DNA from: Gemmatimonadota bacterium
Lineage (GTDB): Bacteria; Gemmatimonadota; Gemmatimonadetes; Longimicrobiales; RSA9
NCBI GenBank assembly: GCA_017881445.1
Contig: JADGQX010000022.1
Coordinates: forward strand, 1-32,719
Direction: 5' to 3'
Length of the DNA stretch: 32,719 nt
Shown here in pieces: positions 11,105 to 32,719 of the stretch. Each line of letters starts with the position of its first letter. The first letter of the stretch is position 1. Position numbers and translations under genes: made by a program. The notes below the pieces were generated by a model. It had not been told where the DNA came from, did no database searches, and saw only the letters and a program-made list of their open reading frames with translations.

Positions 11105-11205
11105 GCGCAGCCGGGCGACGCCGGCGCGTCCGCCGACATGCTGGATCGCAACAACCCCATCCCGCCGAACGGGCGCAAGCGCGCCCCCTGGTCGCTTCCG
11201 CCGCG

Positions 11206-11233
11206 TTGACGCCGGCGCCGCCGCCACCATATT
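11206..11233 (+). promoter_or_regulatory. Promoter of the 3-hydroxyacyl-CoA dehydrogenase gene
   Basis: TTGACG (11206-11211), 16 bases, CATATT (11228-11233). Five of six and four of six consensus matches. It lies 46 bases before the start codon, which gives a short leader containing the palindrome at 11253-11264 and the ribosome-binding site. Confidence 0.65.
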
Positions 11234-11252
11234 CCCGCCCGTCGGCAGGACC

Positions 11253-11264
11253 ATTCCCGGGAAT
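11253..11264. promoter_or_regulatory. 12-bp perfect palindrome, candidate operator
   Basis: ATTCCCGGGAAT is a perfect 12-bp palindrome between the promoter -10 box and the ribosome-binding site (GGAGG 11270-11274) of the dehydrogenase gene. With no loop it would not fold well as RNA, so a dimeric repressor site downstream of the transcription start is the simplest reading. Confidence 0.5.
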
Positions 11265-11279
11265 CGAGCGGAGGCAGCC

Positions 11280-12167: not shown

Positions 12168-12207
12168 GACTGCGTCGAGGCTGTGAGGCGCTGTTTTCTG
12201 CCTTCGC

Positions 12208-13251: not shown

Positions 13252-13340
13252 GGGGGCGGGAGCGTAGGGAGAGGAAAGGGCGCGGGCAAGGGGGAAGGGC
13301 AGCGGCCCCAGCGGCCGGCCCCTGCCCCGGGACGACGTGG

Positions 13341-16080: not shown

Positions 16081-17331
16081 TCAGCCGCCGGCCACGGCCC
16101 AGGACGCGTTCAGCGCCGGCGCCTGGTTCCGCCCCTGCTTCAGCAGCACGTGCGGCGCGGGGGCGAAGGACTCGTAGATCGGCAGCGTGGCCACGCCCAG
16201 CGCAGCCGCGTCCGCGCCCGCGGTGGCCAGCAGGTACGCGGGCGTGGGCGGCTTCTCGCCCAGCCGGCGCTTGGGCAGGCGCTCTCCCAGCCGCCCCATC
16301 AGTCCCTCCAGGATGCGGTCGGGGAGTCGGCCCCCGAAGAAGATCGCCTCGGGGTCGATCAGGTACTCGATGGCCAGCGCCAATCCACTCAGGTGCCGGG
16401 CGGCGATGTCCATCCATTCCAGCAGGCGCGGGTTCCCCTCGCAGAGCAGGCGCTCCAGGTCCTCGGGCGTGCGGGCGCAGGCCCCATCGGCACGCAGCTT
16501 CTCATACAGCCGCGGCAGGTTGAAGTGCAGCCCGACGTGCGGCTTGTCGTCTCCCCAGCGCGCTTCCCGGGATGCCGCCAACGGCATGTACCCGAGCTCG
16601 CCGGCGTTGCCCGTGAAGCCCTCGTACGGCTGCCCGTTCATCACCAGCCCGCCGCCCAGACCGCTGCCGAAATAGAAGTAGAAGAACGTCTTGATCTGCT
16701 GCCCACCCCCGTACCAGCGCTCGCCCACCGCGGCGGCCGTCGCGTTGTTCTCCAGGAACACCGGCATGCTCAGCCGCTCCCGCACCCAGCCCGCCAGCGG
16801 GATGTCGTGCCAGCCCGGGAACGCCCTCGGGTTCACCATGTAGTCCCTGCCGTCCTCCGACAGGTGCATCGGCCCCGGAACCCCGATCCCGACGCCTGAG
16901 ACCTCCTCCGGCCTCAACTGCTGCCGCTCCATCAGGGTATTCGCCGTCTCCACCAGCAGCTCCAGCGCTTCTGCCGGCGTGGGGAAGTCCAGCTCCACGT
17001 GTATCCGTTGCCGCGCCGTCCCCGACAGATCCACCAGCACCCCCGTCAGGTGGTCCCGGTCCAGGTCCAGCCCGATAGCGTGCGCGCCCCCCGGGTTCAG
17101 CGCCAGCGTAGTCGACGGCGCCCCCCGCCCCTCCTGCCGGCGCTCCGCCTCGTACACCAGCCCTGACGCGATCAGCTCCTTCGTCAGGTTCGACACCGTC
17201 TGCACCGTCAGCTCCGTGTGCCGCGCGATGTCCGAGCGCGACAACGGCCCGAACACGCGGATCACCTCGTGCACGATGCGCAGGTTGTACTGCTTGGTGT
17301 ACACCAGGTTGGTGCCCGTCAACATCGACAT
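16081..17331 (-). CDS. ROK-family transcriptional regulator, kinase motifs degenerate
   Basis: A 416-residue regulator: winged helix-turn-helix at about 15-75 (SRSDIARHTELTVQTVSNLT) followed by a ROK sugar-kinase-like domain. The domain looks catalytically dead: the first phosphate motif is LDLDRDHLTGVLVDLSG without the usual DxGxT; the ENDA catalytic Asp is Asn196 (ENNATA, 194-199); and the zinc site (GHxxx...CxCGxxGC) is missing, with Tyr248 in place of His and no Cys cluster. GSGLGGG (222-228) is kept, so sugar binding remains possible. Start is at 17331 with GGAGGAGGA eight bases upstream. It is divergent from the mannan-type operon, which it most likely represses until a sugar binds, as XylR/NagC relatives do; that role is inferred. 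Confidence 0.93.
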   Translation of the reverse strand: MSMLTGTNLVYTKQYNLRIVHEVIRVFGPLSRSDIARHTELTVQTVSNLTKELIASGLVYEAERRQEGRGAPSTTLALNPGGAHAIGLDLDRDHLTGVLVDLSGTARQRIHVELDFPTPAEALELLVETANTLMERQQLRPEEVSGVGIGVPGPMHLSEDGRDYMVNPRAFPGWHDIPLAGWVRERLSMPVFLENNATAAAVGERWYGGGQQIKTFFYFYFGSGLGGGLVMNGQPYEGFTGNAGELGYMPLAASREARWGDDKPHVGLHFNLPRLYEKLRADGACARTPEDLERLLCEGNPRLLEWMDIAARHLSGLALAIEYLIDPEAIFFGGRLPDRILEGLMGRLGERLPKRRLGEKPPTPAYLLATAGADAAALGVATLPIYESFAPAPHVLLKQGRNQAPALNASWAVAGG

Positions 17332-17427
17332 GCTCGCAGATCCTCCTCCGTAGGCCGCGCCGTCGCTTCCCCGCCGTGCGCTGTCGCCGCCGCCCGGGTG
17401 TCACAGCCGACTCCGCCCGCGCGTTCC

Positions 17428-17456
17428 ATGGTACGAAGTCGGATTTCGAAAATCAA
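17428..17456 (-). promoter_or_regulatory. Promoter of the ROK regulator gene
   Basis: On the minus strand: TTGATT (complement of 17451-17456), 17 bases, TACCAT (complement of 17428-17433). Four of six matches each. It lies about 97 bases before the ROK start codon and back to back with the plus-strand promoter, with one base between the two -35 boxes. Confidence 0.6.
17442..17454. promoter_or_regulatory. Candidate ROK operator palindrome
   Basis: GATTT and AAATC flank the centre CGA (17442-17454), containing the perfect 8-bp palindrome TTTCGAAA (17444-17451). It lies inside the ROK promoter spacer and abuts the -35 of the opposite promoter. A+T-rich palindromes in this position are typical for ROK repressors. 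The assignment is inferred. Confidence 0.5.
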
Positions 17457-17457
17457 C

Positions 17458-17485
17458 TTGACTAAATAAACCCGACCCCTAAATT
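17458..17485 (+). promoter_or_regulatory. Promoter of the mannan-type operon
   Basis: TTGACT (17458-17463), 16 bases, TAAATT (17480-17485). Five of six and four of six matches in a conspicuous A+T-rich pocket, 49 bases before the GH5 start codon. Confidence 0.65.
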
Positions 17486-17534
17486 GGGGGCCACGTCGGC
17501 AGGTGCCCGGCTGTCCTCCACCGAGAAGATCCCC

Positions 17535-18863
17535 ATGCAGTCACGAGCCCGCGCGTGGGCCGCACTCCTGTCCTTGCTGCTTCCGGCGACGGCGGTCCGG
17601 GCGCAGGCGCGGGACTTCGTGCGGGTGCGGGCCGGCGGCTTCGTGGTGGGTGAGCGGTCGTACCACTTCGTGGGTGTGAACTACTGGTACGGGATGAACC
17701 TGGGGGCGGAGGGCCCGACGGGTGACCGGGCGCGGCTGGTCCGGGAGCTGGACGCGCTGCAGCGGCTGGGGATCACGAACCTGCGACTGACGGCGGCATC
17801 GGAAGGCCCGGTGACGGAGCCCCAGCGGGTGCGGCCGGTGACGCAGCCGGCTGCGGGGGAGTACGACGAGTCGGTGCTGCGTGGGCTGGACTTCCTGCTG
17901 GCGGAGATGAGCAAGCGGGGGATGAGGGGTGTGCTCATCCTGAACAACTTCTTCCAGTGGACTGGCGGGATGGCGCAGTACGTCTCGTGGGCGACGGGAG
18001 AGCCGATCCCGTACCCGGAGCGGGACGGTCACAGCTGGGACGAGTTCCAGAACTACTCGTCGCGCTTCTACACGCTGCCGGCAGCGCAGAGGCTGTTCGA
18101 GAAGTACGTGGCGATGGTGGTGAACCGTCACAACCACGTGACGGGCGTCCGGTACAGTGACGACCCGACGATCATGGCGTGGCAGTTGTCGAACGAGCCG
18201 CGCGGGCGGGTCAACTCGGATGCCTACGTGTCATGGGTAGACCAGGCTGGCGCGTTCCTTAAGAAGGAGGCTCCTCACCAGCTTGTCTCGCTGGGTGGTG
18301 AAGGCAAGCTGGTGCTGGCGGACAGCACGCAGTTCGCGCGCGTCAGCGGATCGCGGTACCTCGACTACCTGACCATTCATCTCTGGATCGAGAACTGGGG
18401 CTGGTTCGATCCGACGCGGCCGGAAGCGACGTTCAATCGCTCTGTGGGCCGCAGCATGGGCTACCTGTCCGATCACGTGGCGATCGCGGAGGCGCTGCAC
18501 AAGCCACTGGTGCTGGAGGAATTCGGCGTCGCGCGCGACGGCCGTGGCTTCGATCCGGGCTCGGGCGTGAGCTACCGGGACCGTTTCTTCGAGAGCGTGC
18601 TCGAGGCGGTGGACTATCTGGCCCGGGAAGGGTCGGTGGTGGCGGGGGCGAACGTGTGGTCGTGGTCGGGGGAGGGGCGGCCGGTGCGGCCGGGGGCGAA
18701 GTGGAACCCGGGTGAGCCCTTCACGGGAGACCCGGCGCACGAGCGGCAGGGCTGGTACTCGATCTACGACGGCGATACGAGCACGGTGGCCATCGTGGGC
18801 CGGTACGCGCGTCGGCTGGCGGAAATCGGGCGGCCGGGCCGGGGGGCGGGGGGCGGGAACTAG
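17535..18863 (+). CDS. Secreted GH5 glycoside hydrolase, probable endo-beta-mannanase
   Basis: A 442-residue exported enzyme of glycoside hydrolase family 5 (clan GH-A), first gene of the locus. Signal peptide at about 1-25 with cleavage after AVRAQA. TIM-barrel landmarks: YHFVGVNYWYGMNLG, LGITNLRLTAASEG, GVLILNNFFQWTGG, acid/base Glu221 in WQLSNEPRG, and nucleophile Glu329 in LVLEEFGV. The long insert with NNFFQWTGGMAQYVSW, and the SNEPRG/LEEFG motifs, fit subfamily-7-like mannan endo-1,4-beta-mannosidases better than typical cellulases; glucanase activity is not excluded. No carbohydrate-binding module and no lipobox, so it is probably periplasmic or released. Start chosen at ATG 17535 because the signal peptide then begins with Met-Gln-Ser-Arg. 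Confidence 0.88.
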   Translation: MQSRARAWAALLSLLLPATAVRAQARDFVRVRAGGFVVGERSYHFVGVNYWYGMNLGAEGPTGDRARLVRELDALQRLGITNLRLTAASEGPVTEPQRVRPVTQPAAGEYDESVLRGLDFLLAEMSKRGMRGVLILNNFFQWTGGMAQYVSWATGEPIPYPERDGHSWDEFQNYSSRFYTLPAAQRLFEKYVAMVVNRHNHVTGVRYSDDPTIMAWQLSNEPRGRVNSDAYVSWVDQAGAFLKKEAPHQLVSLGGEGKLVLADSTQFARVSGSRYLDYLTIHLWIENWGWFDPTRPEATFNRSVGRSMGYLSDHVAIAEALHKPLVLEEFGVARDGRGFDPGSGVSYRDRFFESVLEAVDYLAREGSVVAGANVWSWSGEGRPVRPGAKWNPGEPFTGDPAHERQGWYSIYDGDTSTVAIVGRYARRLAEIGRPGRGAGGGN

Positions 18864-19592
18864 CGCTTGTTGTTCCGGCGCGGGCGGAGGTGCTCGCGCT
18901 GTGCCCCATGGGCGGACCGGCGGCGTGGCCGCGGTCTGCCGGTCAGGGAGTGGCATGACTTCACGAAGGTTCGCCGGCGAGGTTCTGTACCCGGGTGGCA
19001 CGCCGGCAGCTTCGGCCGCCTCCTCGGCGCAGCCGGGCCTTTCCCCGATCATCGGCGGTGGAATGGTCACCCGGCGCGTTGCCCGGGTACGGGCGGGCGG
19101 GCTGTCCCGTGCCGGCGAGGTGCAGTTGGCAGAGTCGCTTCCGACCTGTCCGCTACTGGAGTATCGGGCCGGGCACGCGCTCCGGCACCCGGCCGAGTGG
19201 AACCCCGGCCTGACGGCGACGGCGCTGGGTCTGCGTGCGCTGGCTTCCACGCTGGTGCAGCGGCAGCGCGCCGGCCGGGACTCCCCCGATCTCTCCTTCC
19301 TCGACTCTCGACTCCCCCACAACACGCAGCCCGCCGACGAGGCCTTCGCGGCCAGGGAGGTGGTCCATGGACAGGATCCGAGTCATTCGGGGTCCACCCC
19401 GCCGCGATCCGGCCTGAGCCGGGCCGCGGTCGGGCTCGAGCGGGGGGGACTCTCCAACCGGGGCGGGCCTTACCGCGGCCGCCTTGCGCATCAAGTCGTG
19501 GTGGGGCGGGCGCCCGGCCGCGAGGGTCGTCACATGATGGAGCCTTTACGGCGGGATGTTGCTCACTTCCTACGCTTCGGAGGGCGCACACC
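18864..19592 (+). other. 729-bp leader before susC, no secure gene
   Basis: Several frames stay open but none is convincing. The frame in phase with susC is Arg/Trp/Pro-rich and has no family features. A second frame (ATG 18956 to TGA 19596) has about 80% G/C at third codon positions by my count, against about 95% in a sampled stretch of susC. Two short ORFs are better placed: a 16-codon one at 19367-19417 with AGGGAGG six bases upstream, and a 20-codon one at 19534-19596 whose stop overlaps the susC start (ATGA). A small hairpin, CCGGC/GCCGG with loop CTGA, is at 19409-19422. No clear promoter was found. Confidence 0.5.
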
Positions 19593-22500
19593 ATGAAATT
19601 CAGTCGCTTCCTGATGCTGCCGGCCGTGCTGGCTGGGCTTCTCTGGGCGGGCACGGCTCGCGCCCAAGGGCCTACTGGCACCCTGGCCGGCAGGGTGCTG
19701 GACGCGCAGACCAACCAGCCGGTGGCGAGCGCGCAGGTCGTGGTCGTGGGGAGCCGCCAGGGCGTGATCAGCGGCCAGGACGGCAGGTTCGTCCTGAACG
19801 GCGTGCCCGTCGGCGCGCACCGCGTGCGCGTTGTTCTGCTGGGCTACGGGGACGCGGAGCAGGCGGTGACCGTGACAGCAGGCCAGATCGCCACGGTCAA
19901 CTTCGAGGTGCAGCCGCAGGCGATCGCCCTGAAGGAAATGGTGGCGGTCGGCTACGGCAGCACGAGGCGCGCGGACGTCACCGGCTCGGTGGCCTCGGTC
20001 AAATCCGACGCCATCGATAAGGTGGCGGTGGCGAGCTTCCAGACCGGGTTGCAGGGGAACGTGGCGGGCGTGCACGTGGTGCAGGGTGACGCGGCCCCCG
20101 GCGGCGGCATCCGGGTTCAGATCCGGGGCGTCAACTCGATGAACTCCGGTAGCGCCGAGCCTCTGTACGTGATCGACGGCATCCCGGTGGCGAGCACCAA
20201 CGTTTCCAAAGGCCAGATCGGTCCGGTCACGTCCGGCGGGGGCTCCTCGCTGACCTCCACCAATCCACTGTCGGAGTTGGCGCCTTCGGACATCCAGTCC
20301 ATCGAAATCCTGAAGGACGCGTCGGCGACGGCGATCTACGGCAGCCGGGGGGCCAACGGCGTGGTCATGATCACGACCAAGCGCGGGCGGGCGGCGGGCG
20401 GCAGCCTGACCTTCTCGGCCTCGCAGGGCTACCAGTCGGTCATCAGGCAGATCCCGGTGCTGAATGCGTTCGATTACGCCAGCTACCAGAATGCGGCCTA
20501 CCTGAACGTGGGCTCGGGCGCGGACATGCCATACGGCGGCGCGAACCGCTCCGGCAGCCTGACCCCCGACAGCATCCGCGCGCTGCGCGGCAACGGCATC
20601 AACTGGCAGAACGAGATCCTGCACACGGCGCCGGTCAGCGACATGACGCTCAGCATGGGCGGGGCGGACGACCAGGGCGATTACATGGTCTCCGGCAACC
20701 TGCTGCAGCAGGAAGGCGTGGTCAGGGGCTCGATGTTCCGGCGTGGCGGCATGCGCCTGAACCTGAACCGCACGGTCGTGAATCCGCGGCTGCGCTTCTC
20801 CAGCAACGCCGCGGTGACGCGTTCCATCAACAACATGGTGCGCAGCTCCACGGAGAGCGGCTATCAGTCGGTGGGCGTGATCCGGCAGGCGCTGGCCTAC
20901 GCGCCCTGGCTGCGGCTGGACACCACCAAGACCAACGATCCGCGGGCGGAGGACCCGTCCGTGATCGGGACGCTCGGCTCCAACCCGCTGCGCTACACGG
21001 ACGAGGTCAAGGAGCTGGACCAGATCACCCGCGCCATCGGCGGCAGCAAGCTCACCTTCTCCATGGGGCGGGGCTTCGCCATCGACCTGAGCGTGGACGG
21101 CAACTACGAGGGGCGGACATACGGCAACTACTTCCCGCGCACGGTTTCGGAGGGCATGGGGAGCCAGGGCGACGCCATCCAGGCGCGCACCGAGTTCGGC
21201 AACATCGTGAACGAGAACCTGCTGCGCTTCCAGCGCGAGTTCGGCGACAAGCAGCGCCTGGACGCGGTCGGCGGCTTCACCTACGAGTACGATCGCAGCT
21301 ACTACGAGAGCCAGGAGGCGCGCACCTTCCCGGACGACCTGCTGGGCTACAACGTCCTGCAGAACGCCACGGACATCCAGAAGCCGCAGTCGGGCGTCTA
21401 CGTCTGGCAGCTGGCCTCGTGGCTCGGCCGCGTGAACTACGCGCTCATGGACCGCTACCTGTTCACGGCCACGGTGCGCGCGGACGGCTCGTCCAAGTTC
21501 GCCGAGAACAACAAGTGGGCGACCTTCCCGGCCCTCGCCTTCGCCTGGCGGGCGAGCGAGGAGCCCTTCTTCAAGAACCAGACGGCGGTGAACGACCTGA
21601 AGGTGCGCCTGAGCTGGGGCGCGTCGGGCAACCAGGCGATCGGGCCGTACCAGTCGCTGCCCTCGGTGGGCGGCGTGGGCGGCACGCCCTTCTACCTGGG
21701 CGGCACCCAGAACGCGGCTTACGCGCTGACGGCGCTGGGCAATCCCAACCTGCGCTGGGAGACGACGAAGCAGACGGACATCGGGATCGACATGGCGGCC
21801 TTCAACAGCCGCTTCACGGCGACGGCCGACTACTACGCCAAGAAGACGACGGACCTGCTGCAGCAGATCCAGCTGCCGAGCAACACCGGCTTCAGCAATG
21901 CCTGGCTGAACTCGGGCGAGGTGTCCAACAAGGGTATCGAGCTGCAGGCGAGCTACCAGATCCTCACGGGGAAGTCGCTGCACGGGCTGAACTGGACGAT
22001 CTCGGCCAACGCCGCGCACAACCAGAACCGGATCGAGTCGCTCGGCCCCATCACGCAGCAGTTCGCGGGTCGGCTGGGCGCCGGCGGTAACCTGGAGGTC
22101 CAGCCCTTCCTGCAGAAGCCGGGGCAGCCCATCGGCGTCATGTATGGCTATAAGACGGACGGGCTGATCAAGACGGTGGCGGACTCCACCGCCTACTCCA
22201 ACGCGATCGGCCGTCCCGCGTCCATGGGCTTCTACAAGTTCCAGGACGTGAACGGCGACGGGAAGATCAACTCGGACGACCAGACCCTCATCGGGGATGC
22301 GAACCCGAAGTGGGTGGGCGGGATGACGAACACCTTCACGCTCGGCCGCTTCGACCTGAGCTCGCTTGTCACCGCCGTGAGGGGCAACAGCATCATCAAC
22401 ACGGCGCTCATGACCTACCTGGTCATGGCGCCGAACCAGAACTTCACGAACATCCCCGAATACATCTACAAGAACAGCTACAACCCGAAGACGAATCCCA

Positions 22501-22802
22501 ACGGCACGTATCCGATGCCGAACATCAACAGCATGTCCTTCAGCAACACGTTCGCCGATGTGTTCATCGAGGACGGGAGCTACATCCGGCTGAAGAACGT
22601 GCAGCTCGGGTACCGGCTGAGGCTGCCAATGGCGCAGTCGGCGCGCATTTACGTGAACGGCACGAACCTGTTCACCAGCACCAAGTACAAGGGCTTCGAT
22701 CCCGAGGTGAGCGCCTTCGGCGGCACGGACCGTCCCGGCGTGGACCAGGCCAGCTATCCGGGCCAGCGGCAGGTCACGTTCGGCGTGAGCGCCACATTCT
22801 AG
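19593..22802 (+). CDS. susC: SusC/RagA-type TonB-dependent outer-membrane transporter
   Basis: A 1069-residue outer-membrane receptor importing oligosaccharides with TonB energy. Signal peptide at about 1-24 (ending TARAQ). Then a carboxypeptidase-regulatory-like beta-sandwich (GTLAGRVLDAQTNQPVASAQ, about 29-105) typical of the SusC group, the TonB-box/plug region with IRGVNSMNSGSAEPLYVIDG and IQSIEILKDASATAIYGSRG (both hallmark strings), and a long beta-barrel. The C-terminus ends in Phe (VSATF), as needed for outer-membrane assembly. Length is normal for the family. I start at ATG 19593 (GGAGGG at 19578-19583); the frame continues upstream but those residues are not protein-like. It is followed after 73 bases by susD, the invariant partner. 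Substrate is inferred from neighbours to be beta-manno-oligosaccharide. Confidence 0.96.
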   Translation: MKFSRFLMLPAVLAGLLWAGTARAQGPTGTLAGRVLDAQTNQPVASAQVVVVGSRQGVISGQDGRFVLNGVPVGAHRVRVVLLGYGDAEQAVTVTAGQIATVNFEVQPQAIALKEMVAVGYGSTRRADVTGSVASVKSDAIDKVAVASFQTGLQGNVAGVHVVQGDAAPGGGIRVQIRGVNSMNSGSAEPLYVIDGIPVASTNVSKGQIGPVTSGGGSSLTSTNPLSELAPSDIQSIEILKDASATAIYGSRGANGVVMITTKRGRAAGGSLTFSASQGYQSVIRQIPVLNAFDYASYQNAAYLNVGSGADMPYGGANRSGSLTPDSIRALRGNGINWQNEILHTAPVSDMTLSMGGADDQGDYMVSGNLLQQEGVVRGSMFRRGGMRLNLNRTVVNPRLRFSSNAAVTRSINNMVRSSTESGYQSVGVIRQALAYAPWLRLDTTKTNDPRAEDPSVIGTLGSNPLRYTDEVKELDQITRAIGGSKLTFSMGRGFAIDLSVDGNYEGRTYGNYFPRTVSEGMGSQGDAIQARTEFGNIVNENLLRFQREFGDKQRLDAVGGFTYEYDRSYYESQEARTFPDDLLGYNVLQNATDIQKPQSGVYVWQLASWLGRVNYALMDRYLFTATVRADGSSKFAENNKWATFPALAFAWRASEEPFFKNQTAVNDLKVRLSWGASGNQAIGPYQSLPSVGGVGGTPFYLGGTQNAAYALTALGNPNLRWETTKQTDIGIDMAAFNSRFTATADYYAKKTTDLLQQIQLPSNTGFSNAWLNSGEVSNKGIELQASYQILTGKSLHGLNWTISANAAHNQNRIESLGPITQQFAGRLGAGGNLEVQPFLQKPGQPIGVMYGYKTDGLIKTVADSTAYSNAIGRPASMGFYKFQDVNGDGKINSDDQTLIGDANPKWVGGMTNTFTLGRFDLSSLVTAVRGNSIINTALMTYLVMAPNQNFTNIPEYIYKNSYNPKTNPNGTYPMPNINSMSFSNTFADVFIEDGSYIRLKNVQLGYRLRLPMAQSARIYVNGTNLFTSTKYKGFDPEVSAFGGTDRPGVDQASYPGQRQVTFGVSATF

Positions 22803-22875
22803 CGGAAGCGCCCGGGGCGGCGCCTGCCGCCCCCGCGCCCGTGAGACCAACGACTAAATGGCAGGGATCAACGAT

Positions 22876-24654
22876 ATGAGATTCCATTCTCGAGAGAATA
22901 CGGGTTGGGGGCGGGCTCTGCGGTGGGCCCTCCTCCCGGCGCTTGCCGTCGGCCTGGCGGGGTGCCAGACCGACCTGACGGAGACGTCCACGAACTTCAT
23001 CTCGCCTGACAAGTTCTACCAGAACGACACCCAGGCGCAGATCGCGGTGAACGGTGTTTTCCAGCCGCTGATGGACTGGAACGGCTGGAGGCAGCCGGCG
23101 CAGCACAGCGTGATGTGCGACGAAGACGAGACCGGGTGCGAGAGCTGGCTGGGCGGCGGCCGCAACGGCAGCGGCCTGGCCAGTCAGTGGTACGGCAACG
23201 GCAACGCCCCGTGGGGCGGCGACTATACGATCATCAACCGCGCGAACCAGGTGCTGCAGTACATCGGCGCCTCGGCGGGGGTGACCGCGACCGCCAAGGC
23301 GCAGTCCCTCGCCATGGCCAAGTTCGGACGCGCCTACGCTTACTTCGACCTGGTGCGCCGCTACGGCGGCGTGCCGCTGCGCACGGTGATGTACACGCCC
23401 GACGCCCAGCTGGGGGAGCAGGCGCGGGCTCCGGTCGATTCCATCTGGAACCAGATCGTGGGCGACCTGCGGGCGGCCGCGACGGACCTGCCGACGGCGT
23501 TCAACGCCGCCAACGGCTCGGGGCTGCCGCGCCAGGCCTCGGCCTACGGGCTGCTGGCCAAGGTCTACCTGCATATGGCGGGCGCCGAGGCGAGCACGGC
23601 TATGCAGGCAAAGAAGAGCCAGTACCTCGACTCGGCGTCCTATTACGCGCAGAAGGTGATGAGCGACGGGTCCACCGGGCTCGAGCCGAAGTACATGGAC
23701 ATGTTCAACGTGAACACGCAGAACGGCAGCAAGGAGATCCTGTTCGCGGTGCAGGGCAACCGCGGCAACGGCTCCAACATCCCGCCCTTCTTCAGCCCCG
23801 CCGGCGACTGCTCGCTGGTGGGCGGCTGCGGCCCGGCGGGCCCCGGCTTCGTGAAGATCCGCTGGGACTTCGCCAAGTCGTTCGACCCGTCGGACAAGCG
23901 CTGGGAGCACAACGTGGCGGTGGCCATGGCCTGGAACTCCATGCCGCCGGCGCAGTCGGTGCTGAAGGACTTCACCACGCCGGTGATCCACGTGGACTCC
24001 TTCACCACGCTGGTGAACAAGGGGCTGGCCCGCGTCGTCCAGAAGAAGGGTCCGGCGGACTGGGCCTCGGGCATGGACAGCGTGGTGGCGGGTGAGGGCT
24101 GGTCGGAAGCCTGCGAGACGAACCGGCTCTTCCCCGGTTTCGAGTTCGTGCAGATGAAGAACTCGAACGGCGACTGGGTGAATGACACGATCGCCATCCC
24201 GCACGCCTACTACACCCTCAAGTACGTCGACAGGGGCAACACGGGCGGCGAGTACGGCAACGCCAACAACTTCATCATCCTGCGCTACGCCGACGTGCTG
24301 CTGGTGCTGGCGGAAGCGGAGGCGCTGAAGTCGGGGCAGACGCCAGCGGCAATGCAGGCGCTGCACCTGATCCGCCAGCGTGCCAACCTGCCCGACATGA
24401 AGAGCGGGCTCAGCCAGGCCGCGTTCATCGACTCGGTGCGCGTGGAGCGCGGGCACGAGCTGTATGCCGAGTTCCAGCGCCGCTTCGACCTCATCCGCCA
24501 GGGCAAGTACCTGGACGTGATGAACGCGTCGGTGCCGACGGAATACCAGGGCAGCCAGGTCTGCCGGCCCCGGGCCCTGTACCAGCTCCTGCAGCCCATC
24601 CCCTCGGGGGAGCTGGCCGCCAACCCGTTGCTCAAGCAGAACACGGGCTGGTAA
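22876..24654 (+). CDS. susD: SusD/RagB-type surface glycan-binding lipoprotein
   Basis: A 592-residue lipoprotein that caps SusC and captures glycan at the cell surface. Signal peptide ends at GLAGC (Cys30). Family landmarks: TDLTETSTNFISPDKFYQND after the lipid anchor, the TPR-like helical body (AKFGRAYAYFDLVRRYGGVP is the classic SusD string), QASAYGLLAKVYLHMAG, and the C-terminal NNFIILRYADVLLVLAEAEA followed by ERGHELYAEFQRRFDLIRQG. I prefer ATG 22876 over ATG 22858 because AGGGA sits eight bases before it and the signal peptide then has a normal basic n-region. A stem-loop follows the gene. Substrate is not readable from sequence alone. Confidence 0.96.
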   Translation: MRFHSRENTGWGRALRWALLPALAVGLAGCQTDLTETSTNFISPDKFYQNDTQAQIAVNGVFQPLMDWNGWRQPAQHSVMCDEDETGCESWLGGGRNGSGLASQWYGNGNAPWGGDYTIINRANQVLQYIGASAGVTATAKAQSLAMAKFGRAYAYFDLVRRYGGVPLRTVMYTPDAQLGEQARAPVDSIWNQIVGDLRAAATDLPTAFNAANGSGLPRQASAYGLLAKVYLHMAGAEASTAMQAKKSQYLDSASYYAQKVMSDGSTGLEPKYMDMFNVNTQNGSKEILFAVQGNRGNGSNIPPFFSPAGDCSLVGGCGPAGPGFVKIRWDFAKSFDPSDKRWEHNVAVAMAWNSMPPAQSVLKDFTTPVIHVDSFTTLVNKGLARVVQKKGPADWASGMDSVVAGEGWSEACETNRLFPGFEFVQMKNSNGDWVNDTIAIPHAYYTLKYVDRGNTGGEYGNANNFIILRYADVLLVLAEAEALKSGQTPAAMQALHLIRQRANLPDMKSGLSQAAFIDSVRVERGHELYAEFQRRFDLIRQGKYLDVMNASVPTEYQGSQVCRPRALYQLLQPIPSGELAANPLLKQNTGW

Positions 24655-24669
24655 GCCCCACCGATCGAG

Positions 24670-24713
24670 ACCCGGTCCACGGGAGCGGCGTGAGCCGCCG
24701 CCGTGGACCGGGT
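24670..24713 (+). other. Two-tier stem-loop with GUGA tetraloop between susD and the symporter gene
   Basis: ACCCGGTCCACGG (24670-24682) pairs perfectly with CCGTGGACCGGGT (24701-24713), 13 bp. Inside, a 2x2 internal loop leads to a second 5-bp stem (GCGGC 24685-24689 / GCCGC 24694-24698) closed by GTGA, which as RNA is a stable GNRA tetraloop. No T-run follows, so it is not an ordinary terminator. It may stabilise the susCD part of the message or reduce read-through into the cytoplasmic genes. Confidence 0.75.
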
Positions 24714-24798
24714 GCCCCGGCGGGTCCCGGCGGACTGCCAGCCGAGCTTTTGAGTTCGAACTTGCCGCTGGTCGCCGTACGGCCGGAACGGGAGAGCG

Positions 24799-26682
24799 AT
24801 GAACCTGCAGCTGGTGGACATCCTCATTATCGTCGCCTACGTCGCGGCGACCCTCGCCGTGGGCTTCTGGATCTCCAAGCGCGCTTCACGGAGCCTGAAG
24901 AGCTACTTCCTCGGCGGGAATGAGATTCCCTGGTACATGCTCGGGGTGTCGAATGCGTCGGGCATGTTCGACATCAGCGGGACCATGCTGCTCGTATACT
25001 GGCTGTTCGTCTACGGCCTGAAGAGCATCTGGATTCCCTGGGTCTGGCCGGTGTTCAACCAGATCTTTCTGATGGTGTTCCTGTCCACGTGGCTGCGCCG
25101 GTCGGGCGTCATGACCGGCGCCGAGTGGATCCGCTTCCGCTTTGGCAACAGCCGGGGTGCCCAGCTGGCGCACCTCATGGTGGTAGTCTTCGCCATCGTG
25201 AGCGTGATCGGCTTCCTGGCCTACGGCTTCATCGGCGTGGGCAAGTTCGCGGCGACGTTCCTGCCCTGGCACCTGTCGGCGGACCCCCAGACGAACGTCA
25301 AGCTGTGGGGGCTGCTGATCACGGCCGTCACCACGCTCTACGTGGTGAAGGGCGGGATGTTCAGCGTGGTCTTCACGGACGTCATGCAGTACGTCCTCAT
25401 GACGGTCTCGTGCATCGCGGTGGGCATCATCGCCATGATGCGCATTTCGCCGGACACGCTGAGCCACGTCATCCCGGCCGGCTGGACGAACCCGTTCTTC
25501 GGCTGGACGCTGAACCTGGACTGGTCGCACCTCCTGCCGGCCGTGAATCGTCGCATCTCCGAGGACGGCTGGTCGCTGTTCGGGCTGTTCTTCACCATGA
25601 CGCTGTGGAAGGGCGTGCTGGTCAGCGCCGCGGGCCCGGCGCCCAACTACGACATGCAGCGCGTGCTCTCCGCCCGCACCCCGACGGAAGCGGCGAAGAT
25701 GAGCGGCGTGGTGTCGCTCGTGCTGATGTTCCCGCGCTACATGCTGACGGCCGGCCTGACGGTGCTCGCGCTCGTCTTCTTCTCGCCGCGGATCCAGGCG
25801 CTGGGCGCAGGGGCGGACTTCGAGCTAGTGCTGCCGTGGGCGCTCCAGAATTACGTGCCCGCCGGACTGCTCGGCCTGCTCATCGCCGGACTGCTGGCCG
25901 CGTTCATGTCCACGTACTCGGCCACCGTAAACGCCGCGCCGGCGTACATCGTCAACGACATCTACAAGCGCTTCGTCAATCCGGACGCCAGCGAGAGGAC
26001 GTACGTCCGCGCGAGCTACGTCGTTTCCGTCGCGGTGGTCATCATCGGCACGTTGATCGGGCTGTACGTCGGCTCGCTCGAGAAGATCGTGCAGTGGATC
26101 GTGACTGCGCTCTGGGGCGGGTACACCGCGTCCAACGTGCTCAAGTGGTACTGGTGGCGTTTCAACAGCTACGGCTACTTCTGGGGCATGGTGCTGGGAA
26201 TCGTCGCCGCGCTCGTGTTCGCCCTCTTAACCGGGATGAACGCGATCTTCTCCTTCCCGATCATCCTCGGCGTCTCGCTCGTGGGCTGCATCGCGGGCAG
26301 CCTGCTGACCGGTCCCGACGACGAGGAAGTGCTGAAGCGGTTCTATCTGAAGGTCCGGCCCTGGGGCTTCTGGAAGCCGATCCATGACAAGCTCGCACTG
26401 GAGCGGCCGGGGCTGGTGGCCAACACGGCCTTCGGGCGGGACATGTTCAACGTGGCGGTGGGCACGATCTGGCAGACCGCGCTGGTCGCCGGCGGCATCT
26501 ACTTGGTGCTGAAGGACTTCCGGGCGCTTGCCCTGTGCGGAGCCATCGTGCTGGTCACCGTCGTCATCCTCAAGTACAACTGGTACGACAAGCTGGAGGA
26601 CTACCCGGCCGACCTGGCGCCGGCGGAGCGGGGCGGGGCGGAACAGGCCGCGCCGGCGCTCGCCGCCACGGTGGGCGACTGA
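24799..26682 (+). CDS. Sodium:solute symporter (SSS family) for sugar uptake
   Basis: A 627-residue inner-membrane protein with about 14 hydrophobic helices, of the SLC5/SSS family. Typical features are the first helix VDILIIVAYVAATLAVGFWI, the SYFLGGNEIPWYMLGVSNAS loop and helix 2, VVKGGMFSVVFTDVMQYVLM, and LLIAGLLAAFMSTYSATVNA (the conserved sodium-site helix). An extra C-terminal portion (about 500-627) includes two more hydrophobic stretches and ends in an Ala/Glu-rich tail. It probably co-transports the disaccharide (mannobiose or mannosylglucose) with Na+ into the cytoplasm, where the next two genes act. The substrate is inferred from position. RBS GGGAGAG just before ATG 24799. Confidence 0.93.
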   Translation: MNLQLVDILIIVAYVAATLAVGFWISKRASRSLKSYFLGGNEIPWYMLGVSNASGMFDISGTMLLVYWLFVYGLKSIWIPWVWPVFNQIFLMVFLSTWLRRSGVMTGAEWIRFRFGNSRGAQLAHLMVVVFAIVSVIGFLAYGFIGVGKFAATFLPWHLSADPQTNVKLWGLLITAVTTLYVVKGGMFSVVFTDVMQYVLMTVSCIAVGIIAMMRISPDTLSHVIPAGWTNPFFGWTLNLDWSHLLPAVNRRISEDGWSLFGLFFTMTLWKGVLVSAAGPAPNYDMQRVLSARTPTEAAKMSGVVSLVLMFPRYMLTAGLTVLALVFFSPRIQALGAGADFELVLPWALQNYVPAGLLGLLIAGLLAAFMSTYSATVNAAPAYIVNDIYKRFVNPDASERTYVRASYVVSVAVVIIGTLIGLYVGSLEKIVQWIVTALWGGYTASNVLKWYWWRFNSYGYFWGMVLGIVAALVFALLTGMNAIFSFPIILGVSLVGCIAGSLLTGPDDEEVLKRFYLKVRPWGFWKPIHDKLALERPGLVANTAFGRDMFNVAVGTIWQTALVAGGIYLVLKDFRALALCGAIVLVTVVILKYNWYDKLEDYPADLAPAERGGAEQAAPALAATVGD

Positions 26683-26718
26683 GGTCCCTCGTCTCCTCAA
26701 CCGAACAGCGGTGAACGC

Positions 26719-27933
26719 ATGCAGACGATCGATGCAGTGGTCCAGGGCACGCCGGGATGGGCCGCGCGCCTGGGGGTGCTGGAGAAGACGCACGAGGCGC
26801 TGCTGAACCAGCCAAACGAGGCCGTGGGCGGTGGGTGGGGCGTCTTCGAGCGCTATCGCTATCCTGTCCTGACGGCGGAGCACGTCCCGCTGCACTGGCG
26901 ATACGACCTGAACCCGAGGACCAATCCGTTCCTGATGGAGCGGATGGGCGTGGACGCGGTCTTCAATTCGGGGGCGATGAAGTTCGAGGGGCGGTACGTG
27001 CAGGCGGCGCGCATCGAAGGCGCGGACCGCAAGTCGTTCTTCGCCATCGCCGAGAGCCCGAACGGGATCGACAACTGGCGCTTCTGGGATTGCCCGATCC
27101 GCATGCCGGAGACGGAGCGGCCGGACGTGAACGTGTACGACATGCGGCTGGTCGAGCACGAGGACGGCTGGATCTACGGCGTGTTCTGCACCGAGCGTAA
27201 GGACGAGGCGCACCCGCATGACCTGACGGCGGCGGACGCACAGGTGGGGATCGCGCGCACGCACGACCTCGTGACCTGGTACCGGCTGCCGGATCTGAAG
27301 ACTCGGGCGGCGCAGCAGCGCAACGCGGTGCTGCACCCGGAATTCGTGAAGGGCAAGTATGGCTTCTACACGCGGCCCCAAGACGGCTTCATCGACATCG
27401 GCTCCGGCGGCGGCGTCGGCTGGGGCGTGTGCGACGACATCACGCACGCGGAGATCGGTGAGGAGGTCATCGTCTCCCCCAAGCGGTATCACACCATCAC
27501 CGAGGTGAAGAACGGCGAGGGCCCGGCGCCGCTTAAGACGCCGGAGGGCTGGCTGCACATGGCGCACGCGGTGCGCAACACCGCCGCGGGGCTGCGCTAC
27601 GTGGTCTACGTCTACGTCACGGACCTGAAGGAGCCCTGGCGCGTCACATACGCGCCGGCGGGCTACCTGATCTCCCCCAGGGGCCCCGAGCGCGTGGGCG
27701 ACGTGTCCAACGTCATCTTCTGCGGCGGCTGGATCCTGGACGACGACGGCACCGTCTTCATCTACTACGCGTCCTCGGACACCCGCATGCACGTCGGCAG
27801 GTCCGACCTCGACCGGCTGCTGGACTACTGCAAGAACACGCCGCCCGACCCGCTGCGCTCCGCGGCCTGCGTGGAGCAGCGCTACGAGCTGATCGGTCGC
27901 AACCTCACGCGCGGGAACGGCGCCCGGGCATGA
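26719..27933 (+). CDS. GH130 phosphorylase, probable 4-O-beta-D-mannosyl-D-glucose phosphorylase
   Basis: A 404-residue cytoplasmic enzyme (no signal peptide) of family GH130. It should split beta-1,4-mannosyl-glucose with inorganic phosphate into alpha-mannose-1-phosphate and glucose, saving ATP. The N-terminal segment [39 protein letters not shown] and the catalytic-acid motif VNVYDMRL (Asp141) follow the subfamily 1 pattern known from the Bacteroides fragilis mannosylglucose phosphorylase; [20 protein letters not shown] holds phosphate-binding basic residues. Length agrees with subfamily 1. Its stop overlaps the start of the 2-epimerase by ATGA, supporting a joint pathway. Specificity for Man-Glc rather than mannobiose or longer chains is inferred. 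Confidence 0.93.
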
Positions 27934-29150
27934 ACCGCGACCGGGCGCTGCGCGCGCTTGGCGACCAGCTCCGGCACGAGCTCGAGCACGGCATTCTGCC
28001 CTACTGGCTCGAGCACGGGCCGGACCAGGAGCACGGGGGGTTCGTCGGGCTGGTCTCGGGCGACGACGTCGCCTCGGCCGCGGCTCCCAAGGGAGCGATC
28101 CTGAACGCCCGCATCCTCTGGACCTTTTCTGCCGCCTACAGGGCGCTGCGGCGGGGGGAATACCGCTGCACGGCGGAGCGGGCGGCGGCATATCTCCAGG
28201 GCCATTTCCTCGACCCCGAGCATGGCGGCGCCTACTGGATGCTGGACGCGGGCGGCGCGCCGCTGGACGACCGCAAGCACGTCTACGCCCAGGCCTTCGC
28301 CATCTACGGGCTGGTCGAATACCACCGGGCCACGGGCGACGAGGCGGCGCTGACCGCGGCGCGGCAGCTCTACTCGCTGGTGGAGCGCCACGCCGCCGAC
28401 GCGGTGCGCGGCGGTTACCTGGAGGCGTTCTCCCGGGACTGGACGCCGCTGGAGGATGTGCGCCTGAGCCCGGACGATCCCGACGAGCGCCGGAGCATGA
28501 ACACGCCCCTGCACCTGCTGGAGGCGTACACGGCACTGTCGCGGGTCTGGCCGGACCCCGGGCTGCGCGAGCGCCTGCATGCCCTGATCGAGCTGTTCCT
28601 GGATCGCATCATCGATCCGGAGTCGGGGCACCTGCACGTCTTCTTCGACGACGACTGGGTCGCGCGCTCGGGGGAAGTTGCCTTCGGCCACGACATCGAG
28701 GCCAGCTGGCTGCTGGTGGAAGCGGCGGGGGAGGCGGGCGACGCCGGCCTGAGCGCGCGCGTGCGCGCGGCGTCGCTCCGGCTGGCGGAGGCGGTGCTCG
28801 AGACCGGCATCGATGCCTGCGGCGGCATCTTCGAGTGGGGCGGCGCCGTGACCGATACCGACAAGGAGTGGTGGCCGCAGGCGGAGGCGATCGTCGGCTT
28901 CCTGAATGCCTACGAGCTGACCGGCCGCGGCCCCTTCCTGGACGCGACACTCCGTACCTGGGACTTCGTCAGCCGCCACGTGGTGGACGCGGAGCACGGC
29001 GAGTGGTTCCGGCGAGTGGCCCGCGATGGGACGCCGCGGCCCGGGCACGAGAAGGCGGGGCCATGGAAATGCCCCTACCACAACTCGCGCGCGTGCCTCG
29101 AGGTCATGGCCCGGGTCGAGCGGCTCGCCCCCCTCGCCCCGGCTTGCTGA
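27930..29150 (+). CDS. Cellobiose/mannobiose 2-epimerase (AGE superfamily)
   Basis: A 406-residue cytoplasmic (alpha/alpha)6-barrel epimerase. It inverts C2 of the reducing-end sugar in beta-1,4-disaccharides, for example mannobiose to mannosylglucose. Visible family residues: Arg61 in [14 protein letters not shown], His195 in [11 protein letters not shown], His254 in [11 protein letters not shown], the Trp pair in [10 protein letters not shown], and His384 in [13 protein letters not shown]; the last two His match the acid/base pair of characterised cellobiose 2-epimerases. Length fits the family. The start overlaps the GH130 stop (ATGA), so translation is coupled. N-acylglucosamine 2-epimerase is a related alternative but the locus favours disaccharides. 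Confidence 0.93.
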
Positions 29151-29255
29151 GTCGCGGGCGGAGACCCACGCCAGATGACGCAGACCGCCCCGCGCCCCTC
29201 TCTTCTGCGCTCCCTGTCCGCCGCACTCCAGAGACAACCGTCGAGGCGAACGCCC

Positions 29256-31553
29256 ATGAAGATCCACCGTCGTTCTGTCGTGCTGGCCGCGCTGGCCGCG
29301 GTCGCGCTGCCGTGCACCCGCGCCCCGCTGGCGGCGCAGCAGGCGCCGGCCCGGGCGGTCCGCGCGCGCGTCGATTCGCTCCTGGCCCGCATGACGCTGG
29401 AGGAGAAGGTCGGCCAGATGACGCAGATCGACCTGCCCAACTTCCTGGCAGCGGGCGCGCAGTCGCCGGACAGCGTGCGGCTGGACCTGCAGAAGCTGCG
29501 CACGGGCATCGTGCAGCGGCACATCGGTTCCATCCTGAACAGCCCCGGGTCCGCGCCCACGGTGAAGGGGTGGAACGGCCTGATCCGGCAGATCCAGGAC
29601 GTGGCCACGCGGGAAACGCGGCTCCGCATCCCGGTGCTCTACGGCGTGGACGCGGTGCACGGCGTGAACTACACGGTGGACGCCACCATCTTCCCGCAGA
29701 ACATCGGCATGGCGGCCACCTTCGACAGCGCGCTGGCGCGGCGGGAGGGCGAGATCGTGGCCGCCGAGCTGACGGCCGCGGGCACTCCCTGGAACTTCGC
29801 ACCGGTGCTGGACGTGGGCCGGCAGCCCCTCTGGCCTCGCTTCTACGAGACGCTGGGCGAGGAGCCGTTCATCGGCCGCCGGCTGGGGCGGGCCCAGGTC
29901 GAAGGCATGCAGGCGAGCGGCCACGTGGCCGTGTCGCTCAAGCACTACCTGGGCTACGGCGGTCCCGCCTCGGGCCACGACCGCACACCGGCGCTCATCT
30001 CCCGCCGCATGGTGCGGGAGCTCTACCTGCCGCCCTTCGCGGAGGCGGTGAGGGCAGGCGCGAAGACGGTCATGGTCAACTCGAGCGAGATCGACGGCGA
30101 GGCGCTCCATGCCAGCCGCTACTGGCTGACGGACGTGCTGCGGGGCGAGCTGGGCTTTCAGGGCGTGATCGTCACGGACTACCAGGACATCATCTACCTG
30201 CACACGCGCCACCACGTGGCGGCCACGCTCAAGGACGCCGTGCGCATCGCGGTCCAGGCCGGCGTCGACATGAGCATGACGCCCAACGACTACCAGTTCG
30301 CGGACGATCTGCTCCAGCTGGTGCGGGAGGGCACGATCCCCGTGAGCCGCATCGACCAGTCCGTGCGCCGCATCCTCACGCTCAAGGCGGAGCTCGGGCT
30401 CTTCGACCGACCTTACCCGGATCCCGCCGCCCGGGCCGGCTTCGCCACGGCGGGCGCCCGGGAGGCGGCCGCGCAGGCGGCGCGGGAGTCCATCACGCTC
30501 CTGAAGAACGACAGCGTGCTGCCGCTACGCCCGGGCGCCCGCGTGCTGGTGACCGGGCCGGCGGCGAATTCGCTCACGGCGCTGAATGGCGGCTGGACCT
30601 ACGTCTGGCAGGGCAACGACGCCTCGCGCTTCCCCGCGGGCGTGCCGACGATCTTGGACGCCATCCGCAAGCAGAGCGCGGACGTGCGCTACGTCCCGGA
30701 CTCCAGCTTCACCGAGCTGGGCGACATGGCCGCGGTCACGCGCGCCACGGCGGGCGCCGACGCCGCCATCGTGGTCCTGGGGGAGGACGCCTACGCCGAG
30801 GGCGTGGGCAACATCGACGACCTGACGCTCCCCGAATCGCAGCTCATGCTGGCGGAGGCGGTGCAGGCGACGGGCATCCCCACGATCCTGGTGCTGGTGG
30901 AAGGCCGGCCGCGCCTGATCGAGCGCGTGGCCGGGCGGGCCCGGGGCATCGTCATGGCCTACTGGCCGGGAATGCAGGGCGGGACCGCGGTGGCGGACGT
31001 GCTGTTCGGCCGGGTGAACCCGAGCGGCCGGCTGCCCTTCACCTACCCCCGCCGGCCCAACGCGCTGACCACCTACGACCACAGGTTCACGGAAGAGCTG
31101 AGCACGGGCGACGGCGGTGGCGCCACGGGCGGCTTCGACCCACAGTTCCAGCTGGGCGAAGGGCTCAGCTACACCACCTTCGCCTACAGTGACCTGAAGC
31201 TGGGCGCGGACACCGTCGGCCTGGCCGACGGGGTGAGCGCGCAGGTGACCGTGCGCAACACCGGCGCCCGCGCCGGCGACGACGTGGTGCTGCTCTTCAC
31301 CCACCAGCAGTACGGGTCGCTGACGCCGGCCGTGCGCCGGCTGCGCGGCTTCCAGCGCGTCGCGCTGGCCCCGGGCGAGTCCCGCACGCTGCGCTTCGCC
31401 CTGGCGCCGGAGGATCTCGCCTTCGTCGGCCAGGATGGCCACCCGGTGCTGGAACCCGGCGCCTTCGATATCATGGTGGGGTCGCTGAAGGCGACGTTCC
31501 AGGTCGTGAATCGGGGCCGGTCCGCCGCGGTGCGCGCGGCCCCACAGCGCTGA
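29256..31553 (+). CDS. Secreted GH3 beta-glycosidase (beta-glucosidase type)
   Basis: A 765-residue exported glycoside hydrolase of family 3. Signal peptide at about 1-28 (VVLAALAAVALPCTRAPLAA). Domains: N-terminal TIM barrel (LLARMTLEEKVGQMTQIDLP, VLYGVDAVHGVNY, AVSLKHYLGYG with the substrate-binding Lys-His), nucleophile Asp308 in GFQGVIVTDYQDI, the alpha/beta sandwich from about 395 (ESITLLKNDSVLPLRPGARV), and a C-terminal fibronectin III-like domain (about 665-750). It should release single glucose or mannose residues from oligosaccharide ends in the periplasm, complementing GH5. I start at ATG 29256 because the signal peptide begins there; the frame extends 27 codons upstream. Substrate (glucoside, mannoside or xyloside) is not decided by sequence alone. 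Confidence 0.93.
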   Translation: MKIHRRSVVLAALAAVALPCTRAPLAAQQAPARAVRARVDSLLARMTLEEKVGQMTQIDLPNFLAAGAQSPDSVRLDLQKLRTGIVQRHIGSILNSPGSAPTVKGWNGLIRQIQDVATRETRLRIPVLYGVDAVHGVNYTVDATIFPQNIGMAATFDSALARREGEIVAAELTAAGTPWNFAPVLDVGRQPLWPRFYETLGEEPFIGRRLGRAQVEGMQASGHVAVSLKHYLGYGGPASGHDRTPALISRRMVRELYLPPFAEAVRAGAKTVMVNSSEIDGEALHASRYWLTDVLRGELGFQGVIVTDYQDIIYLHTRHHVAATLKDAVRIAVQAGVDMSMTPNDYQFADDLLQLVREGTIPVSRIDQSVRRILTLKAELGLFDRPYPDPAARAGFATAGAREAAAQAARESITLLKNDSVLPLRPGARVLVTGPAANSLTALNGGWTYVWQGNDASRFPAGVPTILDAIRKQSADVRYVPDSSFTELGDMAAVTRATAGADAAIVVLGEDAYAEGVGNIDDLTLPESQLMLAEAVQATGIPTILVLVEGRPRLIERVAGRARGIVMAYWPGMQGGTAVADVLFGRVNPSGRLPFTYPRRPNALTTYDHRFTEELSTGDGGGATGGFDPQFQLGEGLSYTTFAYSDLKLGADTVGLADGVSAQVTVRNTGARAGDDVVLLFTHQQYGSLTPAVRRLRGFQRVALAPGESRTLRFALAPEDLAFVGQDGHPVLEPGAFDIMVGSLKATFQVVNRGRSAAVRAAPQR

Positions 31554-31571
31554 ACCCGGGAGGGCCGCCAG

Positions 31572-32558
31572 GTGTCGCGTTACGAGGGAATGACCTATCG
31601 CCGCTGCGGCCGCAGCGGGCTGGTGCTGCCCGCGCTCTCGCTCGGGCTGTGGCACAACTTCGGGAGCGTGGACCCGTTCGATACCGGCCGCGCCATCGTG
31701 CGGCGGGCCTTCGACCTGGGCATCACGCACTTCGACCTGGCCAACAACTACGGCCCGGAGCCCGGCTCCGCGGAAGAGAACTTCGGCCGCATCCTGCGCA
31801 CGGAGCTGGCCGGGCACCGGGACGAGCTGATCATCTCGACCAAGGCCGGCTACCTGATGTGGCCGGGGCCGTATGGCGACGGCGGCTCGCGCAAGTACCT
31901 GCTGGCCAGTCTCGACCAGAGCCTGCGACGGCTCGGCCTCGACTACGTGGACATCTTCTATCACCACCGGCCCGATCCGGCGACCCCGCTGGAGGAGAGC
32001 ATGGGCGCCCTCGCCCAGGCCGTGCGCCAGGGGAAGGCGCTCTACGTCGGGCTGTCGAACTACCCGCCGGAGCGAACGCGGGAGGCGGCCGCGCTGCTGC
32101 GGGAGCTGGACGTTCCCCTGGTGATCCACCAGCCCAAGTACAGCATGTTGGAGCGGGGACCCGAGGAGGAGCTGCTGGACGTGCTGCCGATCGAGGGCCT
32201 CGGCTGCATTGCCTTCTCGCCGCTGGCGCAGGGGCTGCTCAGCGCCCGCTACCTGGCGGGGGTGCCCGCCGACTCGCGCGCCGGCAAGCCGCACGGCTTC
32301 CTGCGCCCCGAGGCCATCACCGAGGCCCGGCTGGCGCAGCTGGCGCGGCTGAACGAGATCGCGGGTGCGCGCGGCCAGACGCTGGCCCAGCTGGCCCTCG
32401 CCTGGGTGCTGCGCCAGCCGGCCATGACCTCGGCGCTGGTGGGCGCGAGCCGGGTGTCGCAGCTGGAAGAGAACGTGGCCGCGCTGGACCGGCTGGCGCT
32501 CTCCCCCGAGGAGCTGCAGGCGATCGACCAGGTGCTGGCCACGGAGGGACAGCCATGA
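31572..32558 (+). CDS. Aldo/keto reductase, YghZ (L-glyceraldehyde-3-phosphate reductase) type
   Basis: A 328-residue cytosolic NADPH-dependent aldehyde reductase. The sequence closely follows E. coli YghZ/Gpr along its length (LPALSLGLWHNFG, FDLGITHFDLANNYGP, GSGGSRKYLLASLDQS-like GDGGSRKYLLASLDQS). The tetrad is intact: Asp55, Tyr60, Lys91, His131. GTG start at 31572 with GGGAGGG seven bases upstream, 18 bases after the GH3 stop, so it belongs to the locus. YghZ reduces L-glyceraldehyde-3-phosphate and methylglyoxal; why such an enzyme is tied to mannan use is unclear. It may detoxify aldehydes from rapid sugar catabolism or act on a sugar aldehyde. Confidence 0.92.
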   Translation: MSRYEGMTYRRCGRSGLVLPALSLGLWHNFGSVDPFDTGRAIVRRAFDLGITHFDLANNYGPEPGSAEENFGRILRTELAGHRDELIISTKAGYLMWPGPYGDGGSRKYLLASLDQSLRRLGLDYVDIFYHHRPDPATPLEESMGALAQAVRQGKALYVGLSNYPPERTREAAALLRELDVPLVIHQPKYSMLERGPEEELLDVLPIEGLGCIAFSPLAQGLLSARYLAGVPADSRAGKPHGFLRPEAITEARLAQLARLNEIAGARGQTLAQLALAWVLRQPAMTSALVGASRVSQLEENVAALDRLALSPEELQAIDQVLATEGQP

Positions 32559-32719
32559 GGCGACGCGAGTTCCTCGGATTCACGGCGGCGGGCGCCGCCG
32601 GCCTGGTGCTGGCGCAGTCGGGCTGCGGCGCGGCCAGGGTGGCGGCCGCCCCGGGCGACCTGCTCCGGCGCCCGCAGCCGAGGGTCCCCCGCCGGCGCGG
32701 CTTCAACCTGACCGAGCTG
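32555..32719 (+). CDS. Tat-exported lipoprotein, 3'-truncated; possible glycoside hydrolase
   Basis: Only 55 codons are in the window. The N-terminus MRRREFLGFTAAGAAG has the twin-arginine pattern RRxFLG, then a hydrophobic segment and a lipobox-like QSGC (Cys24), so a folded protein is exported and lipid-anchored. A Pro/Arg-rich spacer follows and the last visible residues are RGFNLTEL, which resembles the first strand of many GH5-type hydrolases (RGFNL/RGVNL). The start overlaps the aldo/keto reductase stop by ATGA, so it is part of the same transcript. The hydrolase guess rests on eight residues. Confidence 0.75.
   Translation, partial: MRRREFLGFTAAGAAGLVLAQSGCGAARVAAAPGDLLRRPQPRVPRRRGFNLTEL

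Follow-up and report, generated by a model that had tools for sequence, protein, structure and literature searches.

The window analysed here is one whole contig of 32719 bases (C109 of G000, the genome carrying it). Its left part (5-14000) had ordinary content, namely a two-component pair with a LuxR-type regulator, a TPR protein, a cytochrome c, a thiolase, a 3-hydroxyacyl-CoA dehydrogenase and a Na/Ca exchanger. In the right half, a gene for a ROK-family regulator on the minus strand was followed on the plus strand by genes for a GH5, SusC, SusD, an SSS-family symporter, a GH130, a 2-epimerase, a GH3, a YghZ-type aldo/keto reductase and a last gene that is truncated where the contig stops. 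The family matches behind these assignments were far above chance level. SusC and SusD were adjacent and accompanied by carbohydrate-active enzymes, which is the arrangement of a SusCD-type polysaccharide utilisation locus. The first-pass annotation had placed the genes from ROK to reductase as they were found here, while the type of the GH5, the start of SusC and the reading of the last gene as a Tat lipoprotein had to be corrected. Since the gene run ends at position 32719, the end of C109, the window holds only part of the locus. No Rfam match was found over the whole window, and promoter and terminator scans gave results close to chance level. Signal peptides, assessed by eye, were seen in the GH5 and the GH3 and in neither the GH130 nor the epimerase.

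The GH130 protein (26719..27933, +) scored 579 bits against the mannosylglucose phosphorylase (MGP) of Bacteroides fragilis (3was) and 521 bits against another MGP (5ay9), compared to at most 105 bits for the other characterised GH130 enzymes. It was therefore assigned to subfamily 1 (GH130_1), and a position outside this subfamily, named in the first-pass annotation as evidence against mannan use, was not found. Phosphorylases of GH130 are marked by a tyrosine next to the catalytic aspartate, in place of which the hydrolase group has a glutamate (PMC4599007). This tyrosine was present in the window enzyme (NVYDMRL at 138, aligned to the B. fragilis MGP). The substrate of GH130_1 is Man-Glc (PMC4599007), and phosphorolysis of Man-beta-1,4-Glc is the predicted activity of the window protein.

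The 2-epimerase gene (27930..29150, +) overlaps the GH130 gene by 4 bases and encodes a putative cytoplasmic cellobiose/mannobiose 2-epimerase (PF07221, GlcNAc_2-epim, E 2.7e-48). It matched the solved cellobiose 2-epimerases 9l8i and 3wkf with 438 and 434 bits and kept the histidine motifs SMNT..LH, FGHDIE and YHN. In the NCBIfam EpiA equivalog model, which has a cut-off of 800 bits, it scored 379; it is a member of the same family and not necessarily an EpiA equivalog. The GH130_1 and epimerase assignments together back the route that had been proposed for beta-1,4-mannan or glucomannan, consisting of an epimerase and a mannosylglucose phosphorylase. Upstream lies the gene of an SSS-family sodium:solute symporter (24799..26682, +; PF00474 E 1.2e-34), a probable disaccharide importer. 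A gene 65-71% identical to it was found directly upstream of GH130 in two genomes of the same class (G115 and G222) and in loci L009 and L011.

For the in-line GH5 (17535..18863, +), Pfam gave no cellulase match. In phmmer searches the exo-beta-mannosidases CmMan5A (1uuq) and RmMan5B (4lyp) scored 352 and 299 bits, and endo-mannanases at most 110 bits. The match to CmMan5A covered almost the full length, and the catalytic motifs NEP (220-222) and EEFG (328-331) were present. A steric-block loop causes exo action in GH5 enzymes (PMC8233224). Across the region of this loop (CmMan5A 379-410) the window protein aligned through to both CmMan5A and RmMan5B with at most small gaps, and the region was also kept in seven GH5 relatives located near GH130_1 genes. 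The identity as a GH5_7 endo-mannanase was rejected, since the endo-enzymes with their low scores aligned only up to ORF residue 399 and the block-loop region was kept. As judged from its sequence, the window GH5 is of the exo-beta-mannosidase type and falls in the CmMan5A group of GH5_7. Placement of the GH5 in a non-mannan group, which had been considered as a possible objection to mannan use, was thus not obtained. The phosphorolytic catabolism claimed for the locus is backed by the GH130 and the epimerase; because the GH5 is of the exo-mannosidase type, the route appears to be a mixed hydrolytic and phosphorolytic one. Free mannose released by the GH5 could circumvent phosphorolysis.

A 729-bp spacer (18864..19592) without recognisable gene follows the GH5. 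None of the ORFs listed across it looked protein-like, and the idea of an overlooked gene such as an esterase was rejected; the spacer might be what is left of a gene, or a leader region. Given its length, GH5 may be transcribed separately from SusCD. The ORF running into SusC opens at 18867, and its first 242 residues were not protein-like, so a SusC start at 18867 was rejected; the signal peptide and the gene start were found at 19593. The SusC/RagA TonB-dependent outer-membrane receptor (19593..22802, +; TIGR04056 744 bits) is followed by the SusD/RagB surface lipoprotein (22858..24654, +; PF07980 E 6.7e-31, PF14322), in which a lipobox LAGC was recognised by eye. Among the plasmid relatives of SusC listed, the two best (566 and 553 bits) both have a GH130_1 gene at a distance of 2.7 kb, which ties the window SusC to mannan. 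The SusC gene of a Gemmatirosa plasmid had 66-75% DNA matches in five genomes of the order, G000 included, an indirect pointer to Gemmatimonadota as the probable phylum of this high-G+C genome.

The GH3 gene (29175..31553, +; start may be 29256) encodes a beta-glucosidase-like, probably exported protein (PF00933, PF01915, PF14310). It scored 577 bits against the GH3 8va3 and 567 against BoGH3B and was below the cut-off of all NCBIfam models. The reductase (31572..32558, +) reached 471 bits with NF007388, where the cut-off is 448, and a 64% identical gene occurs in the GH130 locus of Gracilimonas (L015).

The ROK regulator (16081..17331, -) has the composition of a ROK sugar regulator, with a ROK domain (PF00480 E 5.8e-35) and an N-terminal winged helix (PF12802). 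ROK genes beside the same cluster elsewhere were 65% (G115), 60% (L009) and 48% (L015) identical to it. In the divergent spacer between ROK and GH5 we noted a 14-bp element, TTGACTAAATAAAC (17458..17471, +), which was single copy within one mismatch in the 4.75-Mb genome and overlapped a promoter-like match from the near-chance promoter scan. At two mismatches it was found in the divergent ROK spacer of L009, where 0 of 500 shuffled sequences did as well, and in that of L015, where 7 of 500 did, and no such copy was found in the ROK spacers of G115, L057 and L020. No 8-mer was shared by four or more of the ROK spacers. The element was picked by eye before testing and its support is therefore weak; we take it as a lead, a candidate ROK operator or promoter element.

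The gene at the contig end (32555..32719, +) had been called a Tat lipoprotein. The start of a Tat-signal lipoprotein is indeed present, but the gene is cut after just 55 codons and is probably the N-terminus of another GH5. By itself, the 55-residue piece had no meaningful PDB match. Contig C174 opens partway through a GH5 gene whose product scored 226 bits against 1vjz (an endoglucanase) and 211 bits against 3w0k (a bifunctional endomannanase/endoglucanase). When the window piece, 42 X and the C174 GH5 were joined, the score to 1vjz rose from 226 to 236 bits, and VPRRRGFNLTEL aligned with IPRWRGFNLLEA in register. No exact end overlaps were found between C109 and the candidate contigs, and no relatives of the C174 GH5, sought as proof of the join, were found in plasmids or in the phylum. 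None of the other GH5 pieces found in the genome fitted better as the continuation; the one on C195 starts at a much later point of the domain and makes a better pair with C319. Judging from these alignments, the Tat piece likely continues as the C174 GH5, an enzyme of endomannanase/endoglucanase type.

Downstream of this GH5, C174 carries on the same strand genes for a 2-epimerase-family protein, an RraA-like protein, a GH9-like protein, two secreted tandem paralogues and a GH27 alpha-galactosidase. The 2-epimerase-family protein, a second one beside the window enzyme (C174, L100, 9876-11321, -), has an apparent signal peptide and the histidine motifs. Its relatives in the GH130_1 loci L052 and L011 (56% identity) have a signal peptide or lipobox; another in L039 was 45% identical. 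A sugar 2-epimerase outside the cytoplasm would be unusual. The two paralogues (3889-5178 and 5175-6386, -), adjacent between the GH9-like gene and GH27, are about 400 aa long and about 52% identical, and had no match in Pfam. A further contig, C379 (L095), encodes a secreted, mannanase-like GH5 of 620 aa without Pfam match (6186-8048, +), which scored 102 bits to an endo-mannanase versus 60 to exo-mannosidases. Its relatives (44-51% identity) occur in the GH130_1 loci L019, L006, L071 and L075, and their hosts, with GH130/epimerase loci, are Neomarinimicrobiota, Planctomycetota, Verrucomicrobiota and Arenicella. GH26 was looked for in this genome and not found.

A full-length GH130_1 was present in one of the 61 nearest genomes, G000 itself, and, across the phylum, in 3 of the 395 genomes sampled; the 60 nearest other genomes gave one weak partial match with 25% identity. 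The other two carriers in the phylum, G115 and G222, have SSS, GH130 and epimerase in the same order with 50-69% identity, followed by a GH26. G115 additionally has the ROK, a GH27, a SASA-type carbohydrate esterase and a GH3. In a sample of 82 GH130_1 loci (80 from named genomes plus G115 and G222), 25 had the SSS-GH130-epimerase triple within 4.5 kb, most of them in Bacteroidota; a ROK gene was nearby in 6 and a reductase gene in 4. A tree of GH130 sequences placed the window protein with G115, G222, L009, two Ignavibacteriota, a KSB1 bin and one Saprospiraceae sequence (SH-aLRT 98). ROK and reductase also accompany the triple in Balneolota. The sodium symporter, the ROK control and the YghZ reductase had been presented in the first-pass annotation as special features, which is not supported, since all three recur with GH130_1 in other phyla, the reductase in Balneolota among them. 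A symporter is also part of the Muricauda PUL (PMC9860051), and ROK control is known in Thermotoga (PMC3750489).

In the locus of Gracilimonas mengyeensis (L015), ROK and a TonB receptor gene point away from each other, and the receptor is followed by a secreted CBM35 protein, SSS, GH130, epimerase, GH5, GH26 and reductase; the L009 locus is similar. Both share with the window the divergent ROK, the SSS, GH130_1 and epimerase in the same order and a similar 14-bp element in the ROK spacer; L015 also has the GH5 and the aldo/keto reductase. In contrast to SusC/SusD of the window, they have a TonB receptor that was not found as a SusC relative and a secreted CBM35/beta-helix protein with a sorting tail. 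The two loci thus have the inner part in common with the window and differ from it in the outer-membrane part. One tentative extension, which we consider rather doubtful, is that a modular, ROK-controlled mannan regulon is common to Balneolota, L009 and this phylum with the outer-membrane uptake module exchanged, and that in some loci, including C174, the exported 2-epimerase relative isomerises sugars before import.

Taken together, the locus is very probably a beta-mannan/glucomannan utilisation locus working in the following order. Manno- and glucomanno-oligosaccharides would enter through SusC/SusD at the surface. Once in the periplasm, they would lose mannose to the exported GH5 and glucose to the GH3, both acting at non-reducing ends and trimming the chains towards disaccharides. 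CmMan5A favours substrates of DP above 2 (PMC9232400), and if the window GH5 shares this preference for more than two units, disaccharides would be left for the symporter. The SSS symporter would carry Man-Man and Man-Glc over the inner membrane. The 2-epimerase would convert Man-beta-1,4-Man to Man-beta-1,4-Glc, from which GH130_1 and phosphate would yield mannose 1-phosphate and glucose. The ROK regulator would repress the genes until mannose or a mannoside is present. Further backbone and side-chain enzymes probably follow on C174 (GH5, GH27), with the second mannanase-like GH5 on C379. The GH26 adjoining SSS-GH130-epimerase in both class relatives (G115 and G222) also backs mannan as substrate.

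The locus might instead scavenge short oligosaccharides (mannobiose, Man-Glc, cellobiose) freed by other organisms, with no polymer degradation of its own. The window contains no complete endo-acting mannanase, its GH5 being exo-type, and the genome is without the GH26 that both class relatives have beside the epimerase. We nevertheless consider this unlikely, because the C379 GH5 scores higher with endo-mannanases than with exo-mannosidases and C174 combines an endomannanase/endoglucanase-type GH5 with a GH27. Far less probable is a beta-glucan or cello-oligosaccharide as the main substrate, with the epimerase acting mainly on cellobiose. The GH3 is beta-glucosidase-like, C174 has a GH9-like gene and cellobiose is a substrate of epimerases in this 2-epimerase family, but GH130_1 works on Man-Glc (PMC4599007) and not on Glc-Man, the epimerase product of cellobiose; moreover, the GH5 is of mannosidase type and GH26 and GH27 accompany SSS-GH130-epimerase in relatives. 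That the contig is a bin contaminant and the locus foreign to the lineage is equally hard to credit: GH130_1 is absent from the 60 nearest genomes apart from the weak partial match, as is the C174 GH5, and the estimated contamination is 3.98%, but the 3-hydroxyacyl-CoA dehydrogenase encoded on this contig shares 70-74% identity with genes from several genomes of the same family and less with those from other families, which argues that the contig is native, and the G+C content is similar throughout (69-71%).

Titles and abstracts of the open literature searched here, which covers few subscription journals, contained no account of a locus of this kind for Gemmatimonadota. Beta-mannan/glucomannan use by the epimerase-phosphorylase scheme is already known from Bacteroidota, and the window is a rare carrier in its phylum. 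The route with SusCD uptake is now extended to a group in which few genomes have it (3 of the 395 sampled), in a clear example of how one conserved inner part goes with different uptake parts at the outer membrane, and the locus yields specific enzyme predictions open to testing. The two cytoplasmic enzymes are the same as in the MGP/epimerase route of B. fragilis (BF0772, 3was, 579 bits). However, that route is fed by a GH26 enzyme, reportedly a mannobiose-forming exo-mannanase in the work of Kawaguchi in 2014, whereas the exported in-line enzyme of the window is an exo-mannosidase-type GH5. The latter resembles CmMan5A, the GH5_7 exo-beta-mannosidase of Cellvibrio mixtus, in its 352-bit match, catalytic motifs and block-loop region; it differs in locus context.

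In Thermotoga maritima, the ROK protein ManR controls mannan and mannoside genes with mannose as effector (PMC3750489). Control by a ROK regulator is the likeness to the window; an ABC transporter serves that regulon, unlike the SusCD and symporter found here. The mannan PUL of Muricauda sp. MAR_2010_75 and other marine Bacteroidetes, upregulated in Muricauda on three mannans, has SusCD, a symporter for manno- and manno-gluco-disaccharides, a GH130 MGP, an epimerase, GH5 and GH27 as here (PMC9860051). It also has GH26 mannanases and an AraC-type regulator (PMC9860051), whereas the window has a ROK regulator, with GH3 and the YghZ reductase in line, in a genome without GH26.
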